Below, in pieces: positions 3,369-60,300 of a stretch of 64,000 bases of DNA. Source of the stretch: Mesaphorura yosii. Taxonomy: Eukaryota > Arthropoda > Collembola > Poduromorpha > Tullbergiidae. The notes below the pieces were generated by a model. It saw only the letters and a program-made list of their open reading frames with translations. It was not told the origin of the DNA and did not search any database. Every line of letters begins with the position of its first letter. Position 1 is the stretch's first letter. The stretch covers positions 1 through 64,000 of the forward strand of contig WIXG01000062.1 in the NCBI GenBank assembly GCA_009869945.1, given 5' to 3'. The position numbers and the translations under genes were made by a program.

Positions 3369-5491
3369 TGACTCATGATATTGACTATGAGTTTGACGTC
3401 TACAAGAAACATCGCGGTGGACATCTTAACAAATTTCCCTGCGCTTGCGGCAAGTGTACCTACTCCTGTGATCGGATTCAAGAGTTTGAAAGACACACGC
3501 AATGCCATACGTTTGAATATTTTGAAAGAAAACAGCCAAGGGTAATCTGCTCATCTCGGCCTCGGCCATCAGAAGCAAATGGTAAACATCCAAGACGGAG
3601 ACTACAAATGTCAAAATGTCATGCTTCCAAGATGTTACATTGCAATTTTGTATTTATTGATTCTCAGGTGTTACTAGGGAAGAAAATAACGAGAAAGAAA
3701 AAGAGGAGTCTAACCGGAACAATAGTCTGGTGGAAATGAGATCTTACAGTTGCAAAGATCCAAATTGTCCACAGACTTTCCAAAGCATGGCAGACTTAGA
3801 GCTTCACATATTAAGACATGAACGGAAGAGTGAGTTTCGTTGTCATTTGTGCACTTTTACGTCTACTTCACTCGGGCTTATGCAACGACACCTTGAAATG
3901 CATGAAAAAAATGCAAATAGGAGGGGAAGTAAGTAAATCAATTGCCTTTCCCTTGTGTATTTGCAAATGATTCCGGAAAGTTGATTTCAAATAATGATTC
4001 TTGAAACTAGCAAGCGACTCAAAGGAATTCCATCAGCGATCTGCCGCTAGCTCATCTTCGCCGCGTGTCTGCTCACCTTTACCTGAACTGCCTGAACAAA
4101 CGCCAATTTATCTTCCAAGCGAGAACCGATTTATGTGTCCCAGTACGAATTGTCCAATGGTTATGTCCGCTGCAAAAGACGTGTCAATTCACTTAAGCCA
4201 GCACAAAATTCCAAAGCACCCGTTCCAGTGCAATATGTGCAGTTATTCCGCCCGTAACGGATTTCATCTGAGTCAACATAAAGTGCTTCATTTAAAAAAC
4301 AAAGTTTTCTTGGAGCTAAAAGCTCAGCTCAGTGGACGACAGAGTCAAGCAGGTGAATGAATCTTTACATTTCTACCACCTTGACATTACAGTTACGGGT
4401 CGGGTCGTAGAATTTTAAGAATTCTGACGAATACATAATACCTCCCTTGTTTCGTTTTCAGAATCTTCTACCAGTCAAGCTCCTAAGCTCACTCGCTGTC
4501 CCAAGCCATACACATCTGCGTCTCGCGGACCCATTTACAAATGCGCAGATTCCAACTGCCCACAAACGTTTTATAAGCGTTCAGATGCGTTAAAGCACAG
4601 TATCAATTTACATAGTGGCACTGGAATATTTAAATGCGATCAATGCACGTTCAGCTCCTCAGTTTATTATTTTGACAAACATAAGGAAAAGCATTTGCAA
4701 GCGGTTCCCGACAGCTCATTGAAGGCCTTAGACATAAACATGCATACTTCGTTCACGGCCACACCCGAACAAAGTATTCAGCACCGAAATCCGACTTTGC
4801 ACGGATTGAAATTTAAGCCTGCTGTGTATCGTCCAGCATGGTTCAAGAAAACCAAATCGCGTGAGGTTTCAAATATATCGTACTTTGATTTGTACTGATC
4901 ATAGTTTGAGATCATTGTTTGTTTTATGCTGCAGGAAAAACTCCAATTGAGCTTGGAAGGAGGCACAGGAGGAACTTGATCAAAGATGGGTTGGTAACAC
5001 CCACTGAGTTGGAAGTTATCAGGAAAGGGAATCCAAAGTTTACTTATGAAACACACGTAACGTACTCAACTGGCAGAGTCGTAACAGTGAATTTTCGATG
5101 TTTTCACTGTCCCAAGGCGTTTGATAAATTTCAAAGCTACAACAAGCATCAAAGAACTCACACTATCAAATTGAGGAAAAATTCAGCCTGGACTTGTGGG
5201 TTTTGCAACAATGAATGCAACGATGAAGATGATTTTCGTCTGCATTGCATACAACACGCCAGTACAACAAAATGCTGGATAGATGTTAACAGATGTTCAA
5301 TACCAGACTCCGAAGCTCAAGCGGACCCCGGCGGCTCTTTCTGTAAGATTTTTAATGCGATGTTCTCAATGTGTGATAATTTTACTTTGGGCATTTTGTG
5401 TAAAGATTGCACTCGGGACGGAACTCGCGAAGATAATTCAAGGAAAATTGGAAATCCTTTTGATGACGGCATTCTAGAGGTAGATTTATAA
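3369..5491 (+). CDS. C2H2 zinc-finger protein (5' end unresolved)
   Basis: Probable nuclear DNA-binding protein. Exons that keep one frame are 3369-3581, 3668-3928, 4011-4352, 4462-4860 and 4935-5491, with GT-AG junctions. Fingers come in pairs: a CX4C finger such as CKDPNCPQTF (also CPSTNCP and CADSNCPQTF) followed by a CX2C finger with a C-x-F/Y-S pattern (CHLCTFTS, CNMCSYSA, CDQCTFSS). Each of the three middle exons encodes one pair. The fifth exon adds FRCFHCPKAFDKF and CGFCNNECN fingers. Exon 1 starts in phase after TTGTTCTAG, and the first visible residues look like the end of a finger, so an upstream exon is missing. The 3' end may differ, as a GTAAG lies at 5343. No orthologue was recognised. 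Confidence 0.8.
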
Positions 5492-5550
5492 TTGAAGACA
5501 GTTATATTTGTGGTCACACCGTTTTAAACCACTAACAAGCCCCATACAAA

Positions 5551-7240
5551 ATGCTTGAAAATCACTTCCAGACTCCAGACTTCCGTTTGATTTCTATGAT
5601 TGAAGCACACAATTTCATGAAGTTTGACACGTTTGCATTCATGCCCGACGACGGATGTAATTTATGTGGCCTGCAAGGTGTGCATGATTGTGGGAAATCG
5701 TCAATAATTCTCGCATGCCTAATTGGAATGGCTTATGATTTACTGCTGGACCTGAATCAAAACTCTACGCTCTGTGGAGTTTCTTTAGATCGTGAGAATT
5801 TAAGAATACTGTTATAATGTAGGCAGGCAAAGCTTATGACTTTAAAAATTGTGCTTTTGGATTTAGGTATTTTGAGGCACGGAGCATCATCTGGCTATGT
5901 TGAGCTTACACTTGAACTGAATCCATACAAAAGTCTTCTGAAAAAATACGGCAGTCAATTGAAACTGAGGCGTAATTTCGTTCAAGGGCGAGCTTTGTCG
6001 GAATCAAAGTTCGAAATCAGTTATGGGATTGTATCGAAGGAAATCATAAAAACGGAAGATGTAAAAGGCATCATGAACAGAATACTACCGCCGTATGCAC
6101 TGAGGCTCATGGTTCTCAGTAGAGAGAATTTGGATTATTTTCTGCAGACTTCTATTTCTTGGTACAACTTTTACGATCGGCTAATGTGAATTTATTCTAA
6201 GTAGTAAGATTGTTGCCTTTTGTAGTAATGATATCTTTTGGACGGTTGCTTCCCATCAAGAAAATCATCTGCGTCAGAAACTCGAAGCAGTCCGGGATCA
6301 AATTGAGCAGATTAGCATTGACTTAGAATCAAGACAAACGGTTGCTGTTATTCTACCGACCACACATGAAATATGATATGATGACCTCATTTACGTTAAC
6401 CTTTGTATTTCAGAGAATCTCATTCCTGAAAGACAGTCTCAAAGTTTGTGCTCAGGAAGATAAAATGGAAACAGATTGGGGTAGGACTTTGCGTGGCATG
6501 CAAGCAGAGGAGTATAAAGCCGCCCAGGAGCAGTACACAATTCTGGAGGATGAATTTCAGGTACAATTTCATCCATGATTTCGAAAATTAGCAACAATGA
6601 TCTTAGGATTGTGTATCTCTTTCGATGCGTTACAGAGACTGGTTGAAGAAGAAGATAGTCTGAGCACTAAAATGGACACCTGTTTGGAAAAATTGGTCGA
6701 TAAAATGCGAAAACCTTTTAAGGAATATATTCTGGCGCAGAATTATGTTGTAAGTTTTTAGTTTCTCATATACGAACACATGCACTTCCTCCGTTTATTG
6801 TAATCTCTTCAAGGGAGATTTTGTCATTTCTACGGATCCGAAAGAATTTGGAATCTGGATGAAGGATATCAGATCATCTGAAACTGAAAGCCCAAAGACA
6901 ATGTACGCATCTTGTTCTTCAACTCTATTGATTGTGGTTATTAATGTTAAAGCGTAATATTAATTAATGTAGGGATGAAGTTCGACGTATTTGGCGAAAG
7001 GAAATGCTCGTTGGTCATAGGCGACTGGCCATTACCGCTTTGTTCATTGGATTTTGGCGCATACTGAAGACATGTCCAATTATGATAGGAGATACGTACA
7101 GCACAAACCCGTCTGAATTTAGCCTTCCGGACAGCTCAATGCCACTGCTGGTGGACACAATTCGAGAATGTCCAAATCGCCAGTTTTTTATTTCGATTCC
7201 AGGTGAAAGTCCTGATGAATTTGTGCAGAAATATACTTAA
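5551..7240 (+). CDS. Hinge-less SMC5-like protein with degenerate ATPase motifs
   Basis: Seven exons (5551-5791, 5867-6161, 6226-6340, 6414-6560, 6636-6749, 6814-6902, 6973-7240) sum to 1269 nt, 422 aa. SMC5 is a subunit of the SMC5/6 DNA-repair complex and is usually about 1100 aa. Residues 16-51 resemble its N-terminal head (IEAHNFMKFDTF, then GLQGVHDCGKSS at the Walker A position). RILRHGASSGYVELTLEL matches the following strand region. After only about 130 coiled-coil residues comes the C-terminal head. From memory, LVGHRRLAITALFIGFWRIL aligns without gaps to the SMC5 signature segment, but SGGER is replaced by VGHRR and the Walker B DE by DT (374-375). QFFISIPG matches QYFFITPK. The hinge and most of the arms are absent. 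It is probably not an active ATPase. AATAAA at 7430. Confidence 0.8.
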
Positions 7241-57380: not shown

Positions 57381-60300
57381 TCACGATCTCAATGCTGCTG
57401 CTGCTGTGGCGGCTGTCTCATTATTATCTGCAGCATCATCTACAACCTCCATCTCCTCGTGCTCGTCCTCATCTGCCGGGCCCACGTCTGCGTCCGCATC
57501 CTCATCATCGGCATGATCGAGTTGATCCTCATCAGCGTCACCGTCACCGTGCTCGTCAACGTCTGACTCTGGCTCACGCTGATGTTGATGGACACGATTA
57601 CTTCCACTATTGTTACAGTTATTATTCTCTTGCTTATTAATACCGCCATGATTAGCATCATCGTTATCATCGTCGCCGTCACCGGCACAGTGATTTTCTG
57701 CAGTGCGGACAGGGATTGAGTTCGACGATTTGGCCAGAGTTGGGACGCCTGATTTTGAATCTGAAGGGTTTGCTCGTCGCTTTGCCCTCCTTCGCAATGT
57801 CTTCGACTTGCCTGTCCTGTGGTCTGAAGACTTTGTATATTCGCCGAGGCCGAGGCTGCGATCAGGATCTAAATCCCCGTTAACCATGCTCACGCGTCGG
57901 GATTCCGCCTCCGTTGTATCTCCGTGCTCTTTTTCCGTTGGCTCTTCTTTGACTTCAACCCTTTTGGCATTGGCAGCCTCCACACTGGTCGCTGTATTCG
58001 TGTTCGACCCAACTGACTCCCTGCCCGATTGCGATTCCATGAGTTCTTCGTCAGAGTCATCCGACCGGTAGAAGAATTTCTTTCGCTTTTGATTGGATTT
58101 TGTCTGCGCTGCCTGCATGAGATGATTTTCTTGCGCTTGAGCCTGTTGCAATCTTTGCACTGTAGCCTCCTCCTGCAATTGTAATTGCTGTGCAAGCCCA
58201 TACTCATTTGCCATGCTCAGAAGTTCCTTCATGTTGACTCCTTGTTTATCAAAGTTCAATGACGACAGGAACATGTCCGAAATGCTGTGAAGGTTCATAT
58301 TTCTGTAAGGGCCACTTGTTGACGAGTTTGTCACTTTCTTCTTGCCAGCGTCGTTCTGATTCTGGCCGCTGTGGCTGACCAGTACATGATTTTCAAGTTC
58401 AGCGCGGAAGTAGAATTTCAGGTGACACTGGTTGCAGTCGTAGATTTTATTCGAGAGGCCATGCTCGAAGATGTGTGACTGGAGTCCAGATGCGGTTGTG
58501 AAGACAGCTGAACACATGTAACACGTAAACGAAGAACAGCCTGCAAATGTGTGCTGGATGAGATGACACTGGAGCTTCTGCAAATAATCATAACTTACAT
58601 TATAGTAATACAGTATCCAATTTCCACGCATACAAAGCACGCAATTTTGTTTTCACATTACGAAGCTCCTTGATACATTGTACATTTGAATACTTTCCTT
58701 TAGGTCGCGCCAACGTAATTTTAATTTTCATTCGCGAAGCGTAGACTTTGTTTGCACTTTCTGTTCCTTGCTTGGTATCGATTAAGGCAGTTTAAACTCA
58801 GTATCCAAATTCAATTCAACTCATCAATTTTCTCTCAGTCAACACATTTCCTTATCATATTCAGAGAAGTCAGTGGAGTGCACAGCATAATATCATTAAA
58901 ATGTCCAAAACGGCGTTTCTTCAAGCGTTTGTCTTGAAAACTAAAGGTACTTAAATTCTCTTATGAAGACTAACCATTAGTTCAGGATTTCGTTCCCACT
59001 TAGGGACAAGGAAATATGTTAACAGGTTTAAACCACTGCTATTTAACTAGTACTTAAAATACGCAAAGAACCGAAAATAAACCGACATCAATTACTTAAT
59101 ACTTACCAGAGGTGAGTCAAAGTATGTGATCTGAGTGCAGAGATGACATTCATGTGACGAACCTTCGTTTAGTAAATGTGTTTGCACGTGAGATTGAATT
59201 TCATCTTCGCTGCTAAAGCTCATCTGACATTTGATACACTGATACGTTTTGGCTTTGTTGGTCTTGTCATTGTCTGGCGGTGACGATGCGACGCGACTTG
59301 AGTTATTGCCTGATATGCGACCTTTCTTCGGAGATCTTCCTGAAGTCGTGTTTCCCGTTGATGTTGAAGACAGTCCGTTTCTTGACCTCACACACTCCTG
59401 ACAAATGTGAGACTGAAGCCCGTTCAGGAGGAAAGGAGACTTCTCTTCCACCTTTCCGCAAATTGTACACTGGGCAGTGTGCCCCACTGCATTCCCGTAT
59501 GAGTTTGGGCTTATCATCATCATGCTCATATGCGCATTGTTGTTGTTGGTCTCCACATACGATTTCGTGTGAAATTTTGCGTGCATTTGTATCTCGATTT
59601 CAGTCATAAGTGTCTGCCGGCAAACAATGCATGGCAGCGGCAGTTGATGGTGGTCCGTCGTCTTTGAGCCGTTGGAACCAGCATTTGATCCGTTGCAGTG
59701 CTGCTTCATGTGCAAATAGAAGCTCTCTTCGCTCATGATGCTCTGCTTACAGCCGGTGCAGCTACTTCCAGCGATCACTTTGCAGTGTGTGAGTTTGTGT
59801 TCAGCGAGGAGTGTCGCAGATGGGCAAACTTCATCACAAATATTGCATTTATGTTTGCCAGATGAAATAATTTGATGGGACTTCATGTGGTTCTCGAGTT
59901 CACTGCGATTTTTACAGTTTTCGTTGCAGTAGGCACAATGGAGGGAAAGCGTCGTGGTGGTGGTTGCGGTCGAGCTACCATGTGACGTGCTTGTTGAACT
60001 TGTCATGAGTCCGAGTCCGGGTCCGGAGCCAGAGATTCCGTTGCTGCCACTGCCACTGCTGCTGATGCCATAATTCTGATGTGATTTCAACTTGGCGTTA
60101 TTATGCGAATGCGACTTGTGGCTACTGTTCGCCAATCCTGCTGTTGCGCCTGCCGTTGACAGCGGCGAGGTGATGGAAATGTGATGAACTTGTTTACGAT
60201 GAGACGTCAGTTCCAATTCGTTGCCGATGATCTTGTCACAAATGTCACACTTCAGCTCTTTACCCTGTTGACTGTGATTGTTATTACTGCTCCCACTTTT

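Follow-up and report, generated by a model that had tools for sequence, protein, structure and literature searches.

SMCHD1 and plant DMS3 are partial SMC-related proteins outside the classical rings, and both possess an SMC-type hinge and no SMC heads. The module described here is their converse, heads without a hinge. To our knowledge, no described protein has an architecture of zinc fingers plus an SMC6 head. Among the matches listed in the open-licence PMC literature, none described an SMC6/zinc-finger fusion or a hingeless SMC6 paralogue. Duplication of SMC6 itself is not unusual, as Daphnia pulex is reported to have SMC6A and SMC6B (PMC2680839). One report has Nse4 binding the SMC6 neck and bridging to the SMC5 head (PMC7297730), and another describes the Smc6-Nse4 contact of Smc5/6 as a neck gate opened by the loader Nse5/6 (PMC10191858).

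The locus lies in the window, the whole 64,000-nucleotide stretch analysed (C62:1-64000 of a 93-Mb genome in 1127 contigs), and has a paralogue on contig C531; the window copy and the C62 copy are the same. Like SMC6, the module has both head halves, a neck and counterparts of all six of its introns. In contrast to SMC6, it is devoid of hinge and outer arms, its Walker B glutamate is changed, C2H2 fingers are attached to it and, in the window copy, the C-loop is changed as well. It shares a superfamily with SMC5, which provides the second-best profile for its N-terminal half; by contrast, its C-terminal half gives no SMC5 match, no intron in common is seen, and SMC5 is a separate gene on C8. 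Similarly, the likeness to RAD50 heads is confined to a weak match of the N half in a profile search of the PDB, whereas the C half has none. With ten paired finger motifs in C531 and nine in the incomplete window gene, the proteins resemble C2H2 zinc-finger proteins, from which they differ by carrying a C-terminal SMC6-like head module.

A sequence-only reading of this DNA had described seven in-frame exons encoding 422 amino acids, and we found the same exons (5551-5791 when read from the ATG, then the six that follow from 5867-6161 to 6973-7240 in Table 1, all on the plus strand). The introns are all GT-AG (75, 64, 73, 75, 64 and 70 nt, in order), and with the donor after 6161 the frame is open for 422 codons. 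An alternative donor after 6185 would give 430 codons, but it would leave an intron 2 of only 40 nt. At the two ends of the module are SMC-like head halves, separated by about 125 residues of coil-like appearance that give weak matches to Pfam coiled-coil families. This linker leaves no space for a hinge, in agreement with the earlier statement that the hinge and most of the arms are missing.

A search of the same genome with the window protein returned one other locus, on the minus strand of C531 (38% and 41% identity in two pieces). With the C531 module as the query, the C531 and window loci were returned together with a C8 match at E 3.98; these counts are lower bounds. The C531 gene model comprises 12 exons and 1081 aa, with an ATG, a stop codon and GT-AG introns throughout. 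Ten C2H2 motif matches, arranged as five pairs, lie in its N-terminal part, the SMC-like module takes up the last seven exons, and the frame is open across the junction between the two parts. Among open frames of at least 50 aa in the 9 kb around the C531 gene, the gene itself aside, none matches the window at E 1e-3.

Finger exons homologous to those of C531 were also recognised upstream of the window module (Table 1). When the finger and linker exons of 3369-5479 are joined to 5572-5791 and the remaining module exons, a 980-aa open frame results, with nine C2H2 pattern matches (the ninth irregular) in this still incomplete gene; with the C531 N-terminus as query, no usable match to its 5' exon(s) and start codon was found. 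The window and C531 genes agree in the phase of the junction intron (0) and in those of the six module introns (1, 2, 0, 0, 0 and 2). More than half of the fused protein consists of fingers and finger linkers. The best Pfam finger-family matches have E 0.003 (window) and 2.9e-5 (C531), and none reaches its curated cut-off.

Table 1. Features of the candidate zinc-finger/SMC6-like gene (positions in the window)
Feature	Positions	Strand	Basis
Recognised exon lying farthest upstream, with the second finger of the first pair, phase 1 entry	3369..3581	+	32% identity to C531 exon-1 fingers, E 1.3e-5
Exon with one C2H2 finger pair	3668..3928	+	homology to C531 fingers
Exon with one C2H2 finger pair	4011..4352	+	homology to C531 fingers
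Exon with one C2H2 finger pair	4462..4860	+	homology to C531 fingers
Last finger exon, homologue of the C531 exon joined in frame to the SMC6 module	4935..5342	+	E 1.2e-7; 40% identity over 55 aa, E 1e-9
Putative linker exon, ends GNPFDDGILE, phase 0 exit like C531 (..ESDDILKERVQ)	5406..5479	+	predicted from frame and paralogue
Putative phase-0 intron GTAGAT...TTCCAG, holds the ATG at 5551 of the sequence-only reading	5480..5571	+	sequence and C531 comparison
SMC6-like N-terminal head part 1, including P-loop	5572..5791	+	profile and gene model
P-loop GVHDCGKS, fits GxxxxGK[ST]	5677..5700	+	sequence
SMC6-like N-terminal head part 2	5867..6161	+	profile and alignment
Coil-like exon (N-terminal neck), 115 nt	6226..6340	+	exon comparison with SMC6 genes and C531
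Single 49-aa exon at the place of SMC6 outer arms and hinge	6414..6560	+	exon comparison
C-terminal neck exon, 114 nt, length and phases equal to both SMC6 genes	6636..6749	+	exon comparison
C-terminal head start, GDFVIS.. (cf. SMC6 GTLTID / GSLVID), 89 nt	6814..6902	+	exon comparison
C-terminal head, degenerate C-loop and Walker B, stop codon	6973..7240	+	profile and alignment
C-loop position, LVGHRR instead of SGGER	7007..7024	+	alignment
Walker B CPIMIGDT, Asp retained, Thr in place of the catalytic Glu	7073..7096	+	alignment

From this comparison, the window module is probably the C-terminal tail of a longer zinc-finger gene and not a separate gene. The ATG at 5551 is probably intronic because the C531 gene is fused, homologous finger exons lie upstream in the window, and an in-frame phase-0 junction is available. 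Thus the module exons of the sequence-only reading stand, and its gene start at that ATG is probably wrong. An acceptor after 5539 was also considered as the junction, but splicing exon 5406-5479 to it breaks the frame, which is restored only by leaving this exon out. The acceptor after 5571 agrees better with the C531 gene.

An alternative to a fused gene is that two genes lie side by side, the finger gene stopping at 5489-5491 and the SMC6-like module (422 aa) being expressed from the ATG at 5551, perhaps under a promoter of its own or through trans-splicing that uses the AG of 5538-5539. The window finger frame is indeed open to a stop of its own, the module is open from that ATG, which lies 11 nt past an AG, and fusion requires the acceptor at 5571 and so bypasses a plausible start. 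Against this, C531 is one frame across the junction with a phase-0 intron, and the window has the matching in-frame exon and acceptor, so that we consider separate genes unlikely. A search of the genome for SL1 RNA gave no match, but its control was equally silent.

We next consider which SMC gene the module descends from. The genome carries a separate SMC5 gene on C8, two SMC6 genes (SMC6a on C61 and SMC6b on C65) and SMC1-4 type genes. The SMC5 and SMC6 genes keep intact motifs, and we judged them full-length by inspecting their open frames by eye. Five loci of the genome matched the Pfam hinge model, none of them in the window, C8, C61 or C65; as the genome's own SMC5 and SMC6 genes are likewise missed, this search carries no weight for the window.

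The introns weigh most in favour of an SMC6 origin of the module. Each of the six is matched at an equivalent place in SMC6b by an intron of its phase. The first (phase 1) precedes LVKTG, the second (phase 2) interrupts KD(K)YKLF, and the third (phase 0) follows KTRE; the fourth and fifth, both in phase 0, come ahead of the 114-nt neck exon and of GTLTID respectively, and the sixth (phase 2) falls ten residues upstream of SGG. In SMC6a, where the third intron was placed by eye from the sequence, five of the six are matched in this way, the first being absent. The window and both SMC6 genes share a C-terminal neck exon length of 114 nt, where C531 has 108 nt. Between the second and third introns, the exon of both modules measures 115 nt and that of the SMC6 genes 109 nt (by eye in SMC6a), which places the third intron 38 residues after the second in the module versus 36 in SMC6. 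The exon that ends at the last intron is longer in the SMC6 genes (116 and 128 nt) than in the modules (89 nt in the window and 92 nt in C531). Because of these small length differences, the intron places are equivalent and not residue-identical. In the SMC5 gene on C8, we saw no intron in common with the module: its frame is open through the places of five module introns, and the intron nearest to the first is two codons off and in another phase.

The stretch between the third and fourth introns occupies about 3.1 kb of the SMC6b gene and is a single exon in the module, of 147 nt in the window and 135 nt in C531. The matching exon boundaries on either side suggest that the route to this mini-SMC was the loss of middle exons. 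On the simplest account, an SMC6 gene would have been duplicated, one copy would have shed its middle exons and become attached to a zinc-finger gene, and the resulting gene would then have been duplicated as a whole. A retrocopy was rejected because the introns are kept. A prokaryotic or viral source was lightly tested by an alignment-based pattern scan of viral contigs (142 stretches), none of which is a relative.

Profile comparisons point to the same parent. Profiles were built for SMC6 and SMC5 (human, yeast and own sequences each) and for SMC1-4 (own sequences); RAD50 was represented by two reference sequences for the N half and only one for the C half. The N halves of the window and C531 copies scored 25.7 and 21.6 bits against SMC6, 15.2 and 11.1 against SMC5, 1.5 and 0.9 against SMC1-4, and -0.9 and 5.6 against RAD50. 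The corresponding C-half scores were 9.7 and 13.0 (SMC6), -0.7 and -0.3 (SMC5), -1.9 and 6.8 (SMC1-4), and -1.3 and -2.3 bits (RAD50). By hhalign, the N half reached a probability of 97.4% with SMC6 (E 3.6e-11), 94.0% with SMC5, 1.5% with SMC1-4 and 4.8% with RAD50; that of the C half with SMC6 was weak (7.9-10.3%). In a leave-one-out control with two SMC6 and two SMC5 proteins, both halves were assigned correctly in all eight cases. As the genome's own SMC6 proteins scored 152 and 196 bits in the N-half control, far from the 25.7 and 21.6 of the modules, the module would be a very diverged member of SMC6.

To both halves of both paralogues the SMC6 profile gave scores above those of every scored shuffle (1000 made each; N half, 735 and 847 scored; C half, 782 and 757 scored). 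A repeat for the C half, with 747 and 744 scored, gave the same scores and again no shuffle as high. The N half was also above its scored shuffles against the SMC5 profile, and so was the C half of C531 against SMC1-4 (6.8 bits). In the reverse search with an N-half profile of the pair, yeast SMC6 was followed immediately by the genome's own SMC5, with the other SMC6 ranking lower. A tree of 12 sequences is consistent with an SMC6 origin: the pair forms a very long branch next to SMC6 (support 81.9/63 for the SMC6 group and 77.1/64 for the group of SMC5 and SMC1-4), a support too weak to place it inside SMC6.

General database searches are nearly blind to the module. In Pfam, the whole 422 aa matched AAA_23 at E 1.5e-4, below the cut-off, the N half alone matched it at E 0.075, and the C half gave no match; the whole C531 module matched SMC_N at E 0.0022, also below the cut-off, and its N half alone matched nothing. 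A phmmer search of the PDB with the window protein returned no SMC. With a profile of the pair, Rad50 heads came first (E 0.023) and no SMC5/6 chain appeared up to E 10.

On these comparisons we take SMC6, and not SMC5, as the parent of the module, the match of the C half being weak. SMC5 parentage, which the sequence-only reading had proposed, was rejected because SMC6 is the best-scoring profile for each half (with a weak score for the C half) and the introns agree with SMC6 and not with SMC5; RAD50 identity was set aside because the halves do not match RAD50 best. Nor is the alignment gap-free, contrary to what had been stated: insertions lie immediately on either side of the P-loop region and also ahead of the C-loop.

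Concerning function, every step beyond the sequence anatomy is one that we infer. A copy of an SMC6 gene may have dropped its middle exons and then joined a zinc-finger gene, and the window module would be translated as part of a zinc-finger protein. Its two halves would fold into an SMC6-like head with a coiled-coil stub; without a hinge, the usual hinge dimer with SMC5 and the formation of a ring would be impossible. The fingers would bind particular DNA sites. The head and neck would bind the normal partners of SMC6. The likeliest of these is the NSE4 kleisin, contacted at the neck, and the SMC5 head may be another; such binding could recruit, anchor or block SMC5/6 at finger-bound sites, the protein being an anchor or a competitor. 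The module would bind ATP at most and hydrolyse it poorly. A DNA-tethered, hingeless SMC6 head, produced by zinc-finger fusion and binding NSE4 and/or the SMC5 head, is the interpretation that we tentatively prefer, at a confidence just short of even. It is favoured by the retention of the neck exon together with the presence of candidate partners, the SMC5 gene on C8 and three loci with Nse4_C matches above the cut-off (C176:4450-4770, C414:12079-12192 and C457:41387-41539). A role as a decoy or scaffold for SMC5/6 partners is plausible. The three Nse4_C loci also raise the possibility that the SMC5/6 kleisin was duplicated together with SMC6.

If kept by selection, a hingeless SMC head with a DNA-binding array would split partner binding from ring formation and loop extrusion. 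If NSE4 or SMC5 is bound, the protein would be a naturally occurring, site-directed modulator of SMC5/6; it would also be an experiment of nature on the head residues that partner binding, as opposed to catalysis, requires.

The retained fold may instead have a purely structural role as a platform for an unrelated partner, such as a chromatin repressor, in an ordinary zinc-finger transcription factor that has no link to SMC5/6. Such a role would fit the divergence of the paralogues in the active-site motifs and their conservation over much of the remaining module, and the share of fingers and linkers in the protein. It is at odds with the retention of the neck exon and its surrounding intron structure, and positive evidence for another partner is absent; we regard it as quite unlikely.

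The active site appears eroded rather than erased. Walker A had been called abnormal, which is not the case in the window copy, as GVHDCGKS matches GxxxxGK[ST]. The losses noted earlier at the C-loop (SGGER to LVGHRR) and at the Walker B glutamate (CPIMIGDT) are real. In C531 the P-loop reads PGGRGKT, without the first glycine, the C-loop MSGGKK and Walker B CPVMLSDA, so that SGG is kept in C531 and lost in the window, and the Walker B glutamate is absent from both. In ABC-type ATPases, loss of this glutamate makes hydrolysis unlikely, and with the residue gone from both paralogues, hydrolysis by either is unlikely. The module is thus probably non-hydrolysing, and the earlier description as apparently ATPase-dead holds for the eroded catalysis and is too strong for nucleotide binding.

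The motif losses are complementary, C62 keeping GxxxxGKS without SGG and C531 keeping SGG without the first P-loop glycine, while neither has the catalytic glutamate. The two proteins might therefore pair, with the P-loop of C62 and the signature motif of C531 forming one composite nucleotide site in a stable zinc-finger head dimer that bridges two DNA sites independently of SMC5/6. Complementary loss in two sequences may be chance, however, and PGGRGKT of C531 may still bind nucleotide, so that such pairing seems distinctly improbable. The bolder version, in which two zinc-finger proteins with complementary incomplete SMC6 heads form a heterodimer around a single non-turnover ATP site and an SMC motor has thereby become a nucleotide-locked bridge between DNA sites, would be highly improbable.

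We also compared the two genes for selective constraint. Over 387 aligned codons of the module, pS was 0.81 (0.75 when codons were shuffled) and pN was 0.42 (0.74 when shuffled, the lowest of 200 shuffles being 0.70). Over 492 codons of the gappier finger alignment, pS was 0.82 and pN 0.52. As synonymous sites are saturated and dS cannot be computed, no dN/dS value is given. Unsaturated pN alongside saturated pS, with the frame and splice sites kept, speaks for constraint on both genes during most of the period after their split. In addition, the occurrence of a second zinc-finger/SMC6-module gene in the genome suggests that selection keeps the architecture. Motif erosion and the long branch would suit a decaying SMC6 pseudogene, but with modelled exons free of stops and frameshifts, modelled introns all GT-AG, pN far from saturation against the paralogue while pS is saturated, and similar branch lengths for the two copies (0.62 and 0.76), decay is extremely improbable. 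The earlier idea of a repurposed SMC paralogue is supported by the C531 paralogue of the same architecture, by the frame kept at saturation and by the separate SMC5 and SMC6 genes with intact motifs.

Several other open frames were noticed by eye. In the window, a 423-codon open frame on the minus strand (57384-58652) begins with C2H2-like finger motifs and is perhaps another zinc-finger gene. A 275-codon open frame on the plus strand (924-1748) is rich in A, F and G, and the strand opposite to it may carry a lysine/alanine-rich (histone H1-like) gene. Elsewhere in the genome, open frames resembling the SMC6 hinge region (RPKGPLGACISV..) lie at C65:236000-236723, upstream of the SMC6b gene, and are perhaps a third, tandem or partial SMC6 copy. 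Two SMC3-like genes were seen at C42:294827-298924 and C44:216256-218599.
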